This document shows, in pieces, positions 10,985 through 31,190 of a DNA stretch of 44,254 nucleotides (position 1 is its first letter; the number at the start of each line of letters is the position of its first letter). Made by a program: the position numbers and the translations under genes. Origin of the DNA: Pseudomonadota bacterium. Lineage in GTDB: Bacteria; Pseudomonadota; Gammaproteobacteria; Pseudomonadales; Azotimanducaceae. The stretch covers positions 1 through 44,254 of the forward strand of contig JACZXA010000009.1 in NCBI GenBank assembly GCA_022571865.1, read 5' to 3'. The notes under the pieces were generated by a model. The model did not search any database. It was not told the DNA's origin and was given only the letters and a program-made list of their open reading frames with translations.

Positions 10985-13900
10985 ATGGGCACAAGCCGTG
11001 AACATTTCGCTCTTGATTGGGTAAAGGGTGAACTCCTCGAAACGCTGAACGAATCTCGTCAAGCGCTGGAGGCGTACGCGGAATCCAATCGGGACGAAAC
11101 CCGCATGCGTGTGTGCTTGACATGTTTACATCAAGTACACGGCACGTTGATCATGCTTGAATTACAAGGTGTCACGCTCCTCGCAGATCATCTCGAACGC
11201 CTCGCACAGGAACTGCTCGACAATAATCCCGACAACGAAACCGGTGCCGTACAAAGTTTGATGCAGGGCATCCTGGAACTCCCTGGCTACGTCGACGAGA
11301 TTCAACGAGGTGCGACGGATTCCTGTGAACCCATGTTGCCTCTGGTAAACGAGATACGCGACTATCTCAATGAGGCACCGATTGAGAGTACGCAGACGGT
11401 TATCGATATCTCGGCCAGTGCCAGCGCATCCGCATTGGAGCGGTTCGACAGCATCGGCGGCATCGACAAAGCGAAGAAAATTCGTTCCGCCTACCAGCAG
11501 GTATTGTTGTCGATCATCAAAGGAGAAAATCTACAACTGGCGCTCGATACGCTGGTAAAAGTTGCGCAGAGTCTGTGTCGGGTTTGTGCCAACACGCCTC
11601 ACGAAACACAGTGGCAGGCTTTTGGCGAATTCATCGCCAGCCTGAATGGTCAACAGGGCCGACTCGACGGGGATGTAATCAGACTGTTGCGCCGCATGGA
11701 TTCGGAAATTCGCACGCTGGCTACCGATGGTGCGGCGGCGTTGAAAAATGAGGTTTCCGTTGAGCTGGTTCAACTGTTGCTCGATACCGCGCAGCTTCAC
11801 GGTTACAGCAGTGAGGTTCTCACAGAATTGCGTGCGGCAGTGTCCAGCAAAGGTCAGGCGAGTGGTCTGGCCATCTCGGGGCGGCAAGCCTTGGCCAGTG
11901 CCGCTGATGCCCTTCGCGAAGAACTGGCGACCGTCAAAGATCACCTGGATCTTTATACCCGCGCAAGTGATAAGAGTACCCATCAATTGGCTGCCTTGAC
12001 CGCCCCGTTGAAACAGATTGGCAGCACCTTGTCACTGCTCGGATTTGAGAGTTCCAAAATTATCGTTGCCGACCAGCTGGAGACTCTGAGTAGCATTAGC
12101 GACGAGGAACAGGTAGATCAACACATGTTGTTGAACATCGCGAGTGCACTCGTACAGGTGGATGAGAATCTCGCCAGCTTCTCAACAGGGGGTAATAAGC
12201 CTGAACTGGAAATCATCGCCGGTGAAGCTCAGAAATCGGTTGTAACGGAGGCGCGTGCTGGGTTGGATCAGGCCAAGCAGGCAATCGTCGACTACATATC
12301 ATCACAGTGGGATGTTCAACATCTAGCCGCCATACCGGAACTGTTCAGTGGAATCTGTGGAGCGCTCGACATCATACCGTTGCCGCGCGCGGCTCGACTA
12401 CTTGGCGGCTGCTCAGGCTACATTGAAAAAACCCTGGTGACCGACCATGTTCCGCAGTGGGAAGATCTGGATCACCTGGCGGACGCCATCAGCGGTATCG
12501 ACTACTACCTGGAACGACTCAACGATGAGTCGAGCGGAGGTACTGAAGATATCCTCGAACTTGTCGAGCGTAGCCTCGGACAACTCGGCTACGCCGCGTT
12601 GATCAACGATGACATGGCCACCAGTGAAGGTTCGCTTCAGGATGAGTCGGCAGCGCTTGTGAGTGAGACTGAACAGATTCCTGGAGAAGCTGAAACGAGT
12701 GGCGAAGCCGCCGGAGAGGTTGGCGAAGACGCCGGAGAGGTTGGCGAAGAAACCGAAGCTGACCTTGCTGCTGAGTCCCTGGCGACCACCGAAGAAGATC
12801 AACCCAGTGAAACGGTAATCGAGTTTAACGAGCCGACGCTTCAGTTGGACGATGACGAAGGATTCGATCTAAGCAACGAATTGTTTGATTTGGTTGAGGA
12901 GTCTGCTGAGACGGAAATGCCTGCTGGCGAATACGCTGAAGAGTTCAGCGACACCGCCGAAGAGGATGGCGAAGACGCCGAAGATGTTCGCGAGGACGCG
13001 GAAGATGTCGCTGGCGCGGAAGATGTCCGCGAGGACGTCGTTTCTGGTGAGGATGTCGTGACCGCACAAGTGGCTGAGCTGGACGGTGGAATCGAATCGG
13101 TTCCCGCTTCAACAGCGCACAAATCCATGACGGACAGCCTTGAAAGCGATGAAGAGATCACTGAGATTTTCGTTGAAGAAGCGACCGAAATTCTCGAAAC
13201 CATTGACGTCTGGTTGCCTCGTCTGCGCCAGGACTTGAAACACTCCGAAGCGCTCGCAGAACTTCGCCGCGCGTTTCACACTCTGAAAGGCAGCGGTCGA
13301 ATTGTCGGCGCGAATGTCATGGGCGAACTCGCGTGGTCGGTCGAGAACATGCTCAATCGGCTGATCGATGAAACGGTTGAACCAACGGAACAATTCGTTG
13401 ACGTTGTAAAGGAAGCCAGGCAGTTGTTACCCCGGTTGCGTGATAACTTCGAGATGCGCGCGAGCTCCCAGATGATCGATGTCGTCCAGATCATGGAGCA
13501 GGCCGACCTGCTTGCTTCGGGAGGTGTGCTGGAGCCCTCAGCACAGGTAGAGCCTTCAGCACAAGTAGAGGAGCCCATCGAACAGGATCAGACCGACTAT
13601 GACACGGCACCTCTGACGCTGTTTTTTGCTGAGGCAGAGGATCACCTCGAGGTGTTGATGAATACGCCTGAGGGAGAAGAGATAGTCCTCAATGAAGAGA
13701 TACTGAGAGCGTTGCATACGCTATCCGGTAGTGCGGCGATGGCAGGAATAGAATCCGTTGCCGAGCTTGCGCGACCGACCTATGAGCTGGCACAAGCAGT
13801 GCGGGGCATCGGTCCAGACAACAGGATTGGTGGTGAAACGGCAGAATTTTTGTTCCTGGCATTCTCGGCCCTGCGCGAGACCCTGAGTCAGCTCAGAGCG

Positions 13901-16900
13901 GATCAAGAGACTGGTGACCATGCACAGCTGGTCGCCCAAGCCAATCGTCTCCTTGCGGGTGTGGATCTGTCAGCATCCCCGCGTGGAATTATGGAGCTTG
14001 GGTGTATTCAAGTTATCTTGGAGGCGCCGGAATTCCTCGAAAGCTGGTGTGCCGGTCCGCTGGACGTCGGTTTTGCCGAGGAATTCAAGAACGCACTCGA
14101 CGAGCTGACTAGCGCAGCCAGCGCTATGCAGTGTGTTGAAGTCGAAAATTTGGCAACGGCTCTCAAAAACGCCTACACCTCGCTTGAGAACGGTGCACTC
14201 GATGAGTCGTGTGTGGTTGTACTGAGTCATGGTCACGATCGCCTGTTGCAGCTGATTGACTCACTGGCGGCCGATCAGGCGCTGGGTCCAGTGGAAGATG
14301 CGGTCGCAGACCTGGCCGAACTCGTCGCAGCCGAACGGTCGAACCGCAACCTGGAAGAAGTCGAAAGTGTTGGCGCGGACACCGAAGAGGTTGGCGCGGA
14401 CGCCGATGATGTTGGCGAGGACGCCGAAGATGAATCGGAAAATCTGCTAGACGACAACGCTCCGGATTTTTCGATTGAGTCCATTGCAGAGTACGTCCGC
14501 GAGGACGCCGTGGAGGTTGGCGAGGACGCCGAAGAGGTTGGCGAGGACGCCGTGGATACCAACGCGGTCGTCGAACAGATCGAACAAGTCTCTGAGGTTG
14601 CGGCGGCTTTACCGGGCGTCTCTGATGCTGAACTCATCCCCGAAGAAATCGATATGGAAATCATCGATATATTTTTCGAGGAAGCAGATGAGATCATGGA
14701 GAAGATCGACCATAACATTCAGGAGTGGGCTGTGGCGCCGACCAACCTGATTTATGTGGAGAATCTGCTCCGTGACTTGCATACGTTGAAGGGCGGAGCA
14801 CGGCTTGCGGGACTGGTTGCACTCGGCGACGAAACTCATCACTTCGAATCCTTCCTGGTAGAGATTCAACGAGATCAGGTAGGGGCGGATGCAGAGTTCT
14901 TCACGGAGCTTCATCTCCGCCACGACCGGCTCGCAGTGCTGGTTGTGAGATTTCAGAAGGTCTTGCAGCTTGCCGACGAACTTCAAGCGCCACAAGTCGT
15001 GCAAGAGCAGTCAGTCGAACCGCAGCCCGATGCTGGTGTGACCGAATCTGGCCGGGAACCATCGAAAACCGAACGGGCTTCTATTAAACCGCCCGAGGCG
15101 GAACCCAGGAAGAAAAGGCCTGAAGACAAACCATCCCATGAGATGGTGCGCGTTGGCTCGAAACTACTGGAATCCCTGGTCAACCTTGCCGGAGAGAGCA
15201 GCATCGTGCGTGCTCGAATCGAGCAAGGCATTAATGATTTCACCGGTGCGCTGGACGAGATGGAAACGACTATCGAGCGGGTACGTGAACAATTACGCCG
15301 GTTGGAGATCGAAACCGAAACTCAGATCTTGTTCCGTCGCGAGAACGTAGAAGGCCCGGCTTACGAAAATTTCGACCCGCTGGAAATGGATCGCTATTCC
15401 CAGTTGCAGCAACTCTCACGGGGTCTTTCCGAAAGCGCCTCTGACATGCTCGAGCTGAAGGATACGCTGCTTTTGAAAGCACGTGATTCGGAGACGCTTC
15501 TGTTGCAACAGGCGCGAATCAATACCGAACTCCAAGAAGGACTCATGCGCACTCATATGGTGCCGTTCAGTCGCATGTTGCCCAAACTGCGCAGAATCGT
15601 ACGACAGGTGTCGCAGGAGCTGAACAAAGATGTTGATTTTCACGCGTACAATACCGAGGGCGAACTGGACCGAAATCTGCTCGAGCGCATGGTGGCTCCG
15701 TTGGAGCACATGATAAGAAATGCAGTGGATCACGGTATCGAGAGCCCGGAGCTACGCAAGAGCTTCGGCAAACCGGCGACCGGTAGAATAGACCTCCGCC
15801 TCTCCCGAGAAGGGGGAGATGTGGTCATCGAGATCAGTGACGATGGTGCCGGTATCGACGTGGAGTCGGTGCGGGAGAAAGCGGTCGAACGGGGTCTGAT
15901 GACCGAAGGCGCCACTCTGAACGATGAACAGGTCAGTCAATTTGTACTCGCGCCGGGATTTAGTACCGCAAAGTCGGTTACGCAAATCTCCGGGCGAGGT
16001 GTGGGCATGGACGTGGTCCACAGCGAAGTAAAAAAGCTTGGTGGCAGCATCAACATTGTTTCACGGCCTGGTCGGGGAACTCGTTTCATCGTTCGAGTGC
16101 CTTTTACGGTGTCCATCAACAGAGCTTTGATGGTTTCCATCGCCGACGATTTGTATGCGATCCCGCTGAACACCATCGAAGGAATCGTGTTGCTGGCGCC
16201 GGAAGAAATTGAGAGGCTTTATGCCCCGGACGGCAATACGTTTGAGTATGCGGGTATACCGTACAGTGTTCGCTACCTCGGGCAGTTTCTGGGACGCGAA
16301 TACGATGCCGGTGCCCAGCGACAATCGGTGCCGGTAGTACTGGTTCGATCGGGCGATCAGTCGGTGGCCGTTCATGTCGACAGCGTACAAGGCAGTCGAG
16401 AGATCGTGGTGAAGAGCTTAGGCCCCCAGTTCGCAGGTGTTGGCGGGATTTCCGGCGCCACCATTTTAGGTGACGGGAGCGTTGTCGTGATCCTGGATCT
16501 ACTTGCGCTGATTCGAGCGCGAAGCGGTGAAAGTTTAGGTGCCAAGAAGCGTCTGGCAGGCGAGGCTCGTGCTCGCTGTGTCATGGTGGTTGATGATTCG
16601 GTTACGGTTCGTAAAGTAACGAGTAGGCTGCTGGAGCGGCAAGGCATAGACGTCATTGTGGCTAAAGATGGCGTGGAAGCCGTTGCAATGTTGCAGGAGC
16701 GCAAGCCCGATCTGATGTTGCTCGATATTGAAATGCCGCGCATGGACGGCTTTGAAGTGGCGCGCCAGGTAAGGCACGACGCGCGGCTGAGGGATTTACC
16801 CATCATCATGATCAGTTCGCGCACGGGAACCAAGCATAAGGAGCACGCGGCGGAACTCGGAGTGAACGATTTCCTTGGGAAACCGTTTCAGGAGAGTGAG

Positions 16901-16933
16901 CTGTTGGCAAAAATTGACGAGTTGGTGAACTAG
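10985..16933 (+). CDS. chpA: Hybrid chemosensory histidine kinase ChpA (PilL)
   Basis: A 1982-residue CheA-type hybrid kinase of the Pil-Chp system. An N-terminal FimL/Hpt-like region has LHQVHGT with H49 at the phospho-His position. Hpt domains follow: H765 (FHTLKGSGRIVG), H911 (LHTLSGSAAMAG, Lys replaced by Ser) and H1266 (LHTLKGGARLAG). The P3 dimerisation helices begin near 1383 and the HATPase domain has N-box N1579 (MIRNAVDHGIE), SDDGAGID and GRGVGMDVV. A CheW/P5 domain spans about 1705-1845 and a receiver 1863-1982 has D1914 (LLDIEMPRMDG). Linkers at 572-592, 661-691, 1129-1149 and 1171-1191 consist of acidic heptapeptide repeats. Pseudomonas ChpA is longer (~2470) with more phosphotransfer sites. 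Confidence 0.96.
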   Translation: MGTSREHFALDWVKGELLETLNESRQALEAYAESNRDETRMRVCLTCLHQVHGTLIMLELQGVTLLADHLERLAQELLDNNPDNETGAVQSLMQGILELPGYVDEIQRGATDSCEPMLPLVNEIRDYLNEAPIESTQTVIDISASASASALERFDSIGGIDKAKKIRSAYQQVLLSIIKGENLQLALDTLVKVAQSLCRVCANTPHETQWQAFGEFIASLNGQQGRLDGDVIRLLRRMDSEIRTLATDGAAALKNEVSVELVQLLLDTAQLHGYSSEVLTELRAAVSSKGQASGLAISGRQALASAADALREELATVKDHLDLYTRASDKSTHQLAALTAPLKQIGSTLSLLGFESSKIIVADQLETLSSISDEEQVDQHMLLNIASALVQVDENLASFSTGGNKPELEIIAGEAQKSVVTEARAGLDQAKQAIVDYISSQWDVQHLAAIPELFSGICGALDIIPLPRAARLLGGCSGYIEKTLVTDHVPQWEDLDHLADAISGIDYYLERLNDESSGGTEDILELVERSLGQLGYAALINDDMATSEGSLQDESAALVSETEQIPGEAETSGEAAGEVGEDAGEVGEETEADLAAESLATTEEDQPSETVIEFNEPTLQLDDDEGFDLSNELFDLVEESAETEMPAGEYAEEFSDTAEEDGEDAEDVREDAEDVAGAEDVREDVVSGEDVVTAQVAELDGGIESVPASTAHKSMTDSLESDEEITEIFVEEATEILETIDVWLPRLRQDLKHSEALAELRRAFHTLKGSGRIVGANVMGELAWSVENMLNRLIDETVEPTEQFVDVVKEARQLLPRLRDNFEMRASSQMIDVVQIMEQADLLASGGVLEPSAQVEPSAQVEEPIEQDQTDYDTAPLTLFFAEAEDHLEVLMNTPEGEEIVLNEEILRALHTLSGSAAMAGIESVAELARPTYELAQAVRGIGPDNRIGGETAEFLFLAFSALRETLSQLRADQETGDHAQLVAQANRLLAGVDLSASPRGIMELGCIQVILEAPEFLESWCAGPLDVGFAEEFKNALDELTSAASAMQCVEVENLATALKNAYTSLENGALDESCVVVLSHGHDRLLQLIDSLAADQALGPVEDAVADLAELVAAERSNRNLEEVESVGADTEEVGADADDVGEDAEDESENLLDDNAPDFSIESIAEYVREDAVEVGEDAEEVGEDAVDTNAVVEQIEQVSEVAAALPGVSDAELIPEEIDMEIIDIFFEEADEIMEKIDHNIQEWAVAPTNLIYVENLLRDLHTLKGGARLAGLVALGDETHHFESFLVEIQRDQVGADAEFFTELHLRHDRLAVLVVRFQKVLQLADELQAPQVVQEQSVEPQPDAGVTESGREPSKTERASIKPPEAEPRKKRPEDKPSHEMVRVGSKLLESLVNLAGESSIVRARIEQGINDFTGALDEMETTIERVREQLRRLEIETETQILFRRENVEGPAYENFDPLEMDRYSQLQQLSRGLSESASDMLELKDTLLLKARDSETLLLQQARINTELQEGLMRTHMVPFSRMLPKLRRIVRQVSQELNKDVDFHAYNTEGELDRNLLERMVAPLEHMIRNAVDHGIESPELRKSFGKPATGRIDLRLSREGGDVVIEISDDGAGIDVESVREKAVERGLMTEGATLNDEQVSQFVLAPGFSTAKSVTQISGRGVGMDVVHSEVKKLGGSINIVSRPGRGTRFIVRVPFTVSINRALMVSIADDLYAIPLNTIEGIVLLAPEEIERLYAPDGNTFEYAGIPYSVRYLGQFLGREYDAGAQRQSVPVVLVRSGDQSVAVHVDSVQGSREIVVKSLGPQFAGVGGISGATILGDGSVVVILDLLALIRARSGESLGAKKRLAGEARARCVMVVDDSVTVRKVTSRLLERQGIDVIVAKDGVEAVAMLQERKPDLMLLDIEMPRMDGFEVARQVRHDARLRDLPIIMISSRTGTKHKEHAAELGVNDFLGKPFQESELLAKIDELVN
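12698..12760 (+). repeat. 21-nt coding repeat, block 1 (three units)
   Basis: Three in-frame 21-nt units encode SGEAAGE, VGEDAGE and VGEETEA (ChpA residues 572-592). The second and third begin with the same GTTGGCGAAGA and sit in the linker between the N-terminal region and the H765 Hpt domain. They belong to the same family as blocks at 12965, 14369, 14495 and 31086. Confidence 0.85.
12965..13057 (+). repeat. 21-nt coding repeat, block 2
   Basis: Consecutive units encode DGEDAED, VREDAED, a shortened six-residue VAGAED, then VREDVVS and GEDVV. Codon choice (GAG GAC GC- GAA GAT) is nearly constant. Bases 13001-13025 are identical to 31128-31152 in the ygfB-family gene, in the same reading frame. 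Confidence 0.85.
13526..13572 (+). repeat. 18-nt tandem coding repeat in ChpA
   Basis: Two near-identical 18-nt units encode EPSAQV-EPSAQV in the linker after the H765 Hpt domain. The sequence differs from the acidic heptads but is another local duplication in the same gene, showing that the ChpA linkers tolerate repeat expansion. Confidence 0.75.
14369..14431 (+). repeat. 21-nt coding repeat, block 3 (three units)
   Basis: Three perfect-period 21-nt units encode VGADTEE, VGADADD and VGEDAED (residues 1129-1149) between the H911 and H1266 Hpt domains. They differ from one another at only a few positions, mostly GCG/GAG and ACC/GCC exchanges. Confidence 0.88.
14495..14557 (+). repeat. 21-nt coding repeat, block 4 (three units)
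   Basis: Three units encode VREDAVE, VGEDAEE and VGEDAVD (residues 1171-1191), just before the H1266 Hpt domain. All three share GAGGACGCCG. Low divergence between units suggests recent tandem expansion. Confidence 0.88.
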
Positions 16934-26053: not shown

Positions 26054-26204
26054 GGGGGTCAGGGTAAAGTGCCAGAGTAAAACGGGGGTCAGGGTAAAGT
26101 GCCAGAGTAAAACGGGGGTCAGGGTAAAGTGCCAGAGTGCTTTAAAAAACACTCTGGCACTTTACCCTGACCCCCCTATTGCATTGCCCTGACCCCCTAT
26201 TGCA
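26054..26204. repeat. REP-like repeat cluster with long hairpin
   Basis: Two complete 30-nt direct repeats (26054-26083, 26084-26113) and a partial third (26114-26138) begin with GGGGGTCAGGGTAAAGTGCC. The third copy and its exact inverse (26150-26175) form a perfect 26-bp stem with a 10-nt loop, CTTTAAAAAA. On the right, CCCTGACCCCC-TATTGCA occurs twice (about 26165-26183 and 26187-26204), the second copy covering the rpiA stop codon. The GGGGTCAGGGTAAA motif resembles repeats that flank REP-associated tyrosine transposases in gammaproteobacteria (recalled, not searched). No transposase gene is present. Lying between two convergent genes, it probably also ends transcription from both sides. 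Confidence 0.9.
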
Positions 26205-30575: not shown

Positions 30576-31190
30576 ATGTCGGATTTGTACGCACTCGCAT
30601 TGAACGCAGCGCGCGAGCTGACGCCCGCCGAATTGCATGGTGCTGTCTGTGGGTTGACCGTTTGTAGCCCGGATGGATTTCCATTGGAGAGCCTTCTGGA
30701 ATTAGTGGGTGTGGACGCCGTAACGGATGAATTTTCCGTCGAGTCGTTTGTCTCTGGCAGCATCGAAGCGTTGATGGCCCTGGATATGAGCTTTGCACCT
30801 TTGTTACCCGACGATAGTGCGGAGATTGGCGATAGGATCGCAGGCCTTGCGGATTGGTGTGCGGCTTTCCTTGCTGGTTTGGCTGCGGGCCTCGTGCACA
30901 TCGAGGTGAATTCGCTCGAAGAACTACCCAAAGAAGCCAAGGAAATTATTGGTGACCTCCGCGCCATCACCGACGTCGACCAAGCGGCTTCGCAAGACGC
31001 CGCGCTCGACGCGGAAGAAGATCTCATGCAGTTACAGGAGTTCGTCAAGGTGGCCGTGTTGCTGATCATGAGTTTGTTGAACACGGACGCCGAAGATGGT
31101 GGCATAGATGCCGAAGATGTCGATGCCGAAGATGTCGCTGGCGCGGAAGATGATGGTGAGGACGCCCTAAACGCGGGTGGGGACGTCTGA
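30576..31190 (+). CDS. ygfB: UPF0149 (YgfB/YecA) family protein with repeat-expanded acidic tail
   Basis: A 204-residue UPF0149 protein, an all-helical family of poorly known function; a Pseudomonas homologue (YgfB) acts in control of ampDh3 and beta-lactam resistance. Family features: AARELTPAELHGAVCGLTV near the N-terminus, LPDDSAEIGDRIAGLADWCAAFLAGL (about 70-95, core LADWCAAFLAGL) and the SQDAALDAEEDLMQLQEFVKVAVLLI helix. After residue ~168 an extra acidic tail of AED/DVDAEDVAGAED repeats is added; relatives usually stop close to this point. The tail DNA is the same repeat family found in chpA. It precedes pepP by 1 bp, as in E. coli. Confidence 0.9.
   Translation: MSDLYALALNAARELTPAELHGAVCGLTVCSPDGFPLESLLELVGVDAVTDEFSVESFVSGSIEALMALDMSFAPLLPDDSAEIGDRIAGLADWCAAFLAGLAAGLVHIEVNSLEELPKEAKEIIGDLRAITDVDQAASQDAALDAEEDLMQLQEFVKVAVLLIMSLLNTDAEDGGIDAEDVDAEDVAGAEDDGEDALNAGGDV
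31086..31165 (+). repeat. ChpA-type coding repeat at the 3' end of ygfB
   Basis: In-frame units encode DAEDGGI, DAED, VDAED, VAGAED and DGEDA. Bases 31128-31152 are identical to 13001-13025 in chpA in the same frame, and GAGGACGCC recurs as in chpA blocks 3 and 4. These are unrelated host genes, so the repeat itself seems to have spread. Confidence 0.88.

Follow-up and report, generated by a model that had tools for sequence, protein, structure and literature searches.

A genus-restricted set of acidic coding minisatellites in unrelated genes of an Azotimanducaceae bacterium

Comparison with known in-frame repeats

To our knowledge, few reports describe in-frame dispersed repeats across unrelated bacterial genes, and those that exist concern palindromic elements. 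Rickettsia palindromic elements (RPEs) are single palindromic inserts of ~150 bp, which lie in frame and whose peptide is tolerated by the host protein (PMC10969869). PARCELs are tandem in-frame repeats of variable number that were proposed to be shuffled within genomes; they encode 25-residue amphipathic domains, have dyad symmetry, and occur across phyla in ORFs without assigned function (PMC2996958). Here we describe a set of in-frame 18- and 21-nt coding minisatellites built on a GAAGATG core (Glu-Asp-x), usually in the form GCC-GAA-GAT-GNT-GGC. The set came to light in a window of 44,254 nt, the whole stretch of DNA that was analysed, and its arrays lie in about 12 unrelated genes of the source genome (G000) and two congeners (G001 and G002), all three assemblies being fragmented metagenome bins.

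Like RPEs, these repeats keep the reading frame of several unrelated genes, all within a single genus. The comparison with RPEs drawn in the initial annotation nevertheless fails in anatomy: instead of one ~150-bp insert with fixed boundaries there are tandem copies, typically of 18 or 21 nt (range 15-24 nt), which vary in number, form no long-stem palindrome and appear to be seeded in part by native codons. The description of the repeat as acidic and non-palindromic did hold. No inverted repeat was found in the ygfB array, and the folding z-scores (0.19 for the ygfB array, -1.2 to -2.5 for the chpA arrays) reflect short stems of 3-5 bp only, so that neither test supports a palindrome or a MITE origin. 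Some 21-nt units can form a weak GGC..GCC hairpin (z-score as low as -3.8 in a perfect trimer), and this hairpin might aid slippage; the ygfB array in the window does not form it.

With PARCELs the set shares in-frame tandem repetition and variable copy number. The units here, however, are acidic and 6-7 residues long rather than amphipathic and 25 residues long, they lie in identifiable housekeeping genes of a single genus, and dyad symmetry in the coding DNA is limited to the weak hairpin of some 21-nt units. In its working the set partly resembles both RPEs and PARCELs, but it falls under neither definition. Its properties are also those of intragenic VNTRs, namely tandem units of 18, 21 and 24 nt, multiples of three in an open frame, located at termini and in linkers and changing in copy number across species and contigs. 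We know of ordinary VNTRs only as repeats confined to one gene or one paralogue family, whereas here a unit is common, at the DNA level, to unrelated genes.

The ygfB tail and its match in chpA

The UPF0149 protein encoded by ygfB carries an extra acidic C-terminus, beginning directly after the end of the family domain (Table 1). D or E occupies 15 of the 35 tail residues, and the repeats are spaced at a mixture of 15, 18 and 21 nt; both congeners have near-perfect 21-nt arrays at this tail. In UPF0149 proteins of the nearest other genera the acidic tail is absent, homologues outside the genus ending without it; the tail is not an ancient feature of the family.

Table 1. Features of the ygfB and chpA genes in the window
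Feature	Coordinates	Strand	Description
ygfB gene	30576..31190	+	UPF0149, 204 aa; family domain at residues 11-169
ygfB tail	31083..31187	+	C-terminal acidic repeat, residues 170-204 (TDAEDGGIDAEDVDAEDVAGAEDDGEDALNAGGDV)
25-mer, ygfB copy	31128..31152	+	GAAGATGTCGCTGGCGCGGAAGATG
25-mer, chpA copy	13001..13025	+	
chpA-like gene	10985..16933	+	1982-aa hybrid kinase: Hpt, HATPase, CheW and receiver domains
chpA array 1	12700..12750	+	21-nt unit, 2.4 copies (GEAAGEVGEDAGEVGEE)
chpA array 2	12927..13037	+	21-nt unit, ~5 copies (TAEEDGEDAEDVREDAEDVAGAEDVRED)
chpA array 3	14368..14432	+	21-nt unit, 3.1 copies (GADTEEVGADADDVGEDAED)
chpA array 4	14499..14556	+	21-nt unit, 2.8 copies (REDAVEVGEDAEEVGEDAV)

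Within this tail, 25 nt are identical to a segment of chpA 18 kb away. Both copies stand in the same codon frame ((31128-30576)/3=184 and (13001-10985)/3=672) and are translated as EDVAGAED, and two further words of the tail, GAGGACGCC (31158-31166) and GCCGAAGAT, are present again in chpA. The host proteins are unrelated, one being a UPF0149 protein and the other a hybrid kinase with Hpt, HATPase, CheW and response-regulator domains. The initial annotation was therefore right about the extra tail, the exact in-frame match, the shared flanking units and the lack of homology between the hosts. When the window was shuffled 100 times with its dinucleotides preserved, no such 25-mer pair arose. 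The genome-wide search that it had proposed gave no third copy at up to 3 mismatches in the 4.56-Mb genome (0 matches for the reversed control), and the 25-mer itself, with two copies in the source genome, was ruled out as a genome-wide family. The match is nonetheless not confined to these two genes, as the exact 25-mer is also present in an N-terminal GrpE array of G001.

In chpA, a related 21-nt unit forms four arrays, distributed over three linker stretches. The same gene contains, at 13532-13570, 2.2 copies of an in-frame 18-nt unit (GAGCCCTCAGCACAAGTA) that is not of the GAAGATG type.

Long exact runs are also seen between other array-bearing genes. Within one genome they reach 25 nt (G000) and 33 nt (G001) for chpA and ygfB and 26 nt for mlaC and the LLM-class monooxygenase gene of G000, and between chpA of G000 and grpE of G001 the longest run is 31 nt. 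We compared such runs with a recoding null of 1000 trials in which peptides were kept, codons followed the usage of the window and identical units were kept identical; the codon table was taken from 16 window ORFs picked as likely genes, chpA itself among them. For chpA and ygfB of G000, 25 nt was obtained in 0/1000 trials when codons depended on tripeptide or pentapeptide context and in 8/1000 when the codon was fixed per amino acid. Over the four gene pairs with runs of 25-33 nt the corresponding values were 0/1000 in the context classes and 2-8/1000 in the harshest class; for grpE and ygfB across species they were 1-2/1000, and 7 under the harshest class. The grpE-chpA pair within G001 had no excess identity (14 nt) under this null. 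Judged from these trials, the peptide alone is insufficient to account for the DNA identity between ygfB and chpA, and a DNA-level relatedness between unrelated genes is statistically supported.

Codon choice within the arrays is likewise uniform. GAA and GAT make up 54% and 52% of the codons for their amino acids in the window, and GAAGAT is used in 10 of the 11 arrays of at least 3 units (a hand tally involving judgement; binomial 2e-5); matches in a codon-degenerate search for GARGAYG pairs were almost all GAAGATG arrays. Outside arrays GAAGATG is not over-represented in the genome (142 occurrences vs 122-134 expected), and it was rejected as a Chi-like word on this ground. We also rejected a generally repeat-rich genome, the density of strong tandem arrays being 16 per Mb on sampled contigs (746 kb) vs 11.5 in relatives, a slight excess. 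With GAAGATG not over-represented and tandem repeats at an ordinary density overall, nothing points to a special mutator.

Arrays in other genes and in relatives

Arrays in other genes were sought with the 21-nt chpA unit, and later with more patterns and a sequence-only covariance model. The chpA unit retrieved the tail of the MlaC protein (AEDDGKAEDGGKDAEDGGK...), a mid-protein array in the LLM-class monooxygenase (EDGGKAEDAGEAAEDGGKAAEDVVEA) and a stretch downstream of the signal peptide in an MBL-fold protein, and the codons of these three arrays align on GCC GAA GAT GNT GGC. The later searches added a (TEDVVP)n array at the RimM N-terminus, a (VEDADQV)n array in a ZapG-like protein and an array in the linker of BlaR1-TonB. 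One array at the 3' end of a gene brings its own stop codon. Two others, situated at junctions between genes, are in part non-coding (C86/G002 C219 and C5); the 19-nt unit of the former, an exception to the multiple-of-three rule, is sited at and past the stop codon. Junction GAAGATG arrays (L301 1779-1870 and L304 3360-3424) provide either the stop codon of a gene or the initiating ATG of the gene that follows it. When single dispersed units were considered, one-mismatch matches to GCCGAAGATGNNGGC were mostly chance-like, and arrays alone stood out.

Among 98 relatives, dense GAAGATG arrays occur in three, and these are all three members of the genus. Close GAAGATG pairs number 57, 25 and 15 in their genomes (4, 0 and 0 in the reversed control) and 0-13 per genome, scattered in appearance, in the remaining relatives. 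In a collection-wide scan for three GAAGATG copies at 21-nt spacing, the hits, among the matches listed, were scattered across many phyla and set no bound on the distribution. Among the relatives compared, the acidic coding minisatellites form a real set that is restricted to the genus.

At the sites of G000 arrays in ygfB, LLM, chpA, mlaC and blaR1, the congeners carry arrays with other copy numbers. Absence outside the genus was tested for the ygfB tail and for the LLM insert, and the latter is absent from orthologues of nine other genera. The LLM enzyme is the clearest example. These nine orthologues, whose identity is 66-81% when taken over the first block that matches, read CF-xDDVVEANGQ or similar and have no gap-filling insert: matches break at query positions 145 and ~170, which are contiguous in the DNA of the orthologue. 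The extra residues amount to 25 aa in G000, 14 in G002, where repetitiveness has been lost, and 9 in G001. Variation is also seen within a genome. The grpE gene of G001 occurs on two contigs with near-identical flanks and 8 vs 5 units, and the ZapG-like VEDADQV array of G000 exists in two versions (L136/L137, contigs C31/C48) whose left flanks differ by one SNP, which suggests either a length difference between strains or a split in the assembly. The two cases together point to array lengths that vary within the populations sampled, although assembly error may play a part. The AEDVAx array of G001 grpE (L132 979-1758) has a sub-threshold similarity to the PF20854 'LED repeat' (23.9 bits; cutoff 59).

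Birth of arrays and exchange of units

The rimM gene illustrates how an array can arise. The RimM protein of G001 starts with MATDDVVIVGRIG, and in G000 the hexacodon (A/P)TEDVV found in this start is repeated several times ahead of IVGRIG. On this comparison the rimM array was born locally, a native Glu-Asp-Val site having been duplicated in tandem, and the LLM array, whose expanded site holds native A-E-D-V-V codons, was probably born in place likewise; arrays can therefore start locally from native Glu-Asp-Val codons. The outer members of the set (rimM, zapG-like, blaR1-tonB, C5 and C280) share the heptamer only and are probably independent births. The initial annotation had proposed a dispersed, protein-coding repeat family. 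It was correct in that arrays occur in unrelated genes of G000 and its congeners; since rimM, and probably LLM, were born in place, not every array of the wide set belongs to a single dispersed family. The evidence favours copying from gene to gene in only a subset of the arrays.

We consider it probable that arrays originate in place, within segments that are acidic and tolerant, and that, for a subset, units are then exchanged between genes. According to this model, arrays would start where a native segment already encodes Glu-Asp and where a change in length is tolerated, as at a terminus, in an inter-domain linker or in a surface loop. Strand slippage or unequal recombination would produce the first tandem duplication, after which units would expand and contract, only multiples of three surviving inside genes. 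For the subset with long common units (chpA, ygfB and grpE; mlaC and LLM) we infer that exchange between genes is needed. Such copying could proceed most simply via ectopic recombination or template switching, the arrays sharing a near-identical core of 15-30 nt, and chpA, with units of both types in its linkers, would be the likeliest reservoir. The products would be added acidic linkers and tails of variable length, probably disordered. Among the arrays compared, no donor-recipient transfer event with flanks was seen, and the exchange, its recombination mechanism, its direction and its effect on the proteins are read here from the arrays themselves.

Alternatively, all arrays may be purely local births, slippage in acidic low-complexity segments having produced a likeness that reflects a small alphabet, codon preference and chance. 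This is a possibility that we regard as rather doubtful. It agrees with the native Glu-Asp-Val codons at rimM and probably LLM, with the GrpE acidic N-termini of G000 and G002, which are repetitive with quite different units, with the GAAGACG units of an acidic array in another genome (G014), and with the short run shared by grpE and chpA of G001. It does not, however, predict identities of 25-33 nt in four gene pairs beyond those of peptide-keeping recodings, nor a preference for GAAGAT over its three synonymous pairs in nearly all arrays when GAAGATG is not enriched elsewhere.

One may also speculate, tentatively, that the genus maintains a pool of exchangeable acidic units, with chpA as its hub, which invade native GCC-GAA-GAT-G sites by microhomology and with no transposase. 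If so, acidic linkers and tails would be spreading in frame through the proteome.

A mobile element of the RPE or MITE type inserting itself in frame into genes is very improbable: it would account for insertions that are scattered over unrelated genes, in frame and restricted to the genus, one of them within an enzyme domain, but fixed length, terminal inverted repeats and a palindrome are all absent, copy number changes unit by unit, and native codons seed rimM and probably LLM. That assembly artefacts or chimeric binning placed similar repeats into different genes is equally hard to credit, although the assemblies are metagenome bins with arrays at contig ends (G002 C221/C91, G000 C31/C48/C93, G001 C634/C416/C42), because both copies of the 25-mer lie within one 44-kb contig, array lengths are near one read length, and the separately assembled congeners have arrays at equal sites. 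Some individual arrays may still be misassembled, as the bins are fragmented and many arrays are at contig ends.

Together with outgroups, the three species provide empty, seeded and expanded states of equal sites, including a conserved enzyme domain, and it thereby becomes directly testable, via sequence comparison, how disordered acidic linkers and tails originate and spread in bacteria. Copying of units from gene to gene, which we infer for part of the set, could show how bacterial proteins acquire disordered tails and linkers.

The window contains, in addition, an intergenic 30-nt tandem repeat at 26054-26143 (GGGGGTCAGGGTAAAGTGCCAGAGTAAAAC), present in three copies that are followed by an inverted copy of the repeat end. 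Words related to it (GGGTCAGAGTAAA) were counted 15 times over 746 kb of G000 and were absent from the relatives sampled, and it looks like a separate, dispersed intergenic repeat.
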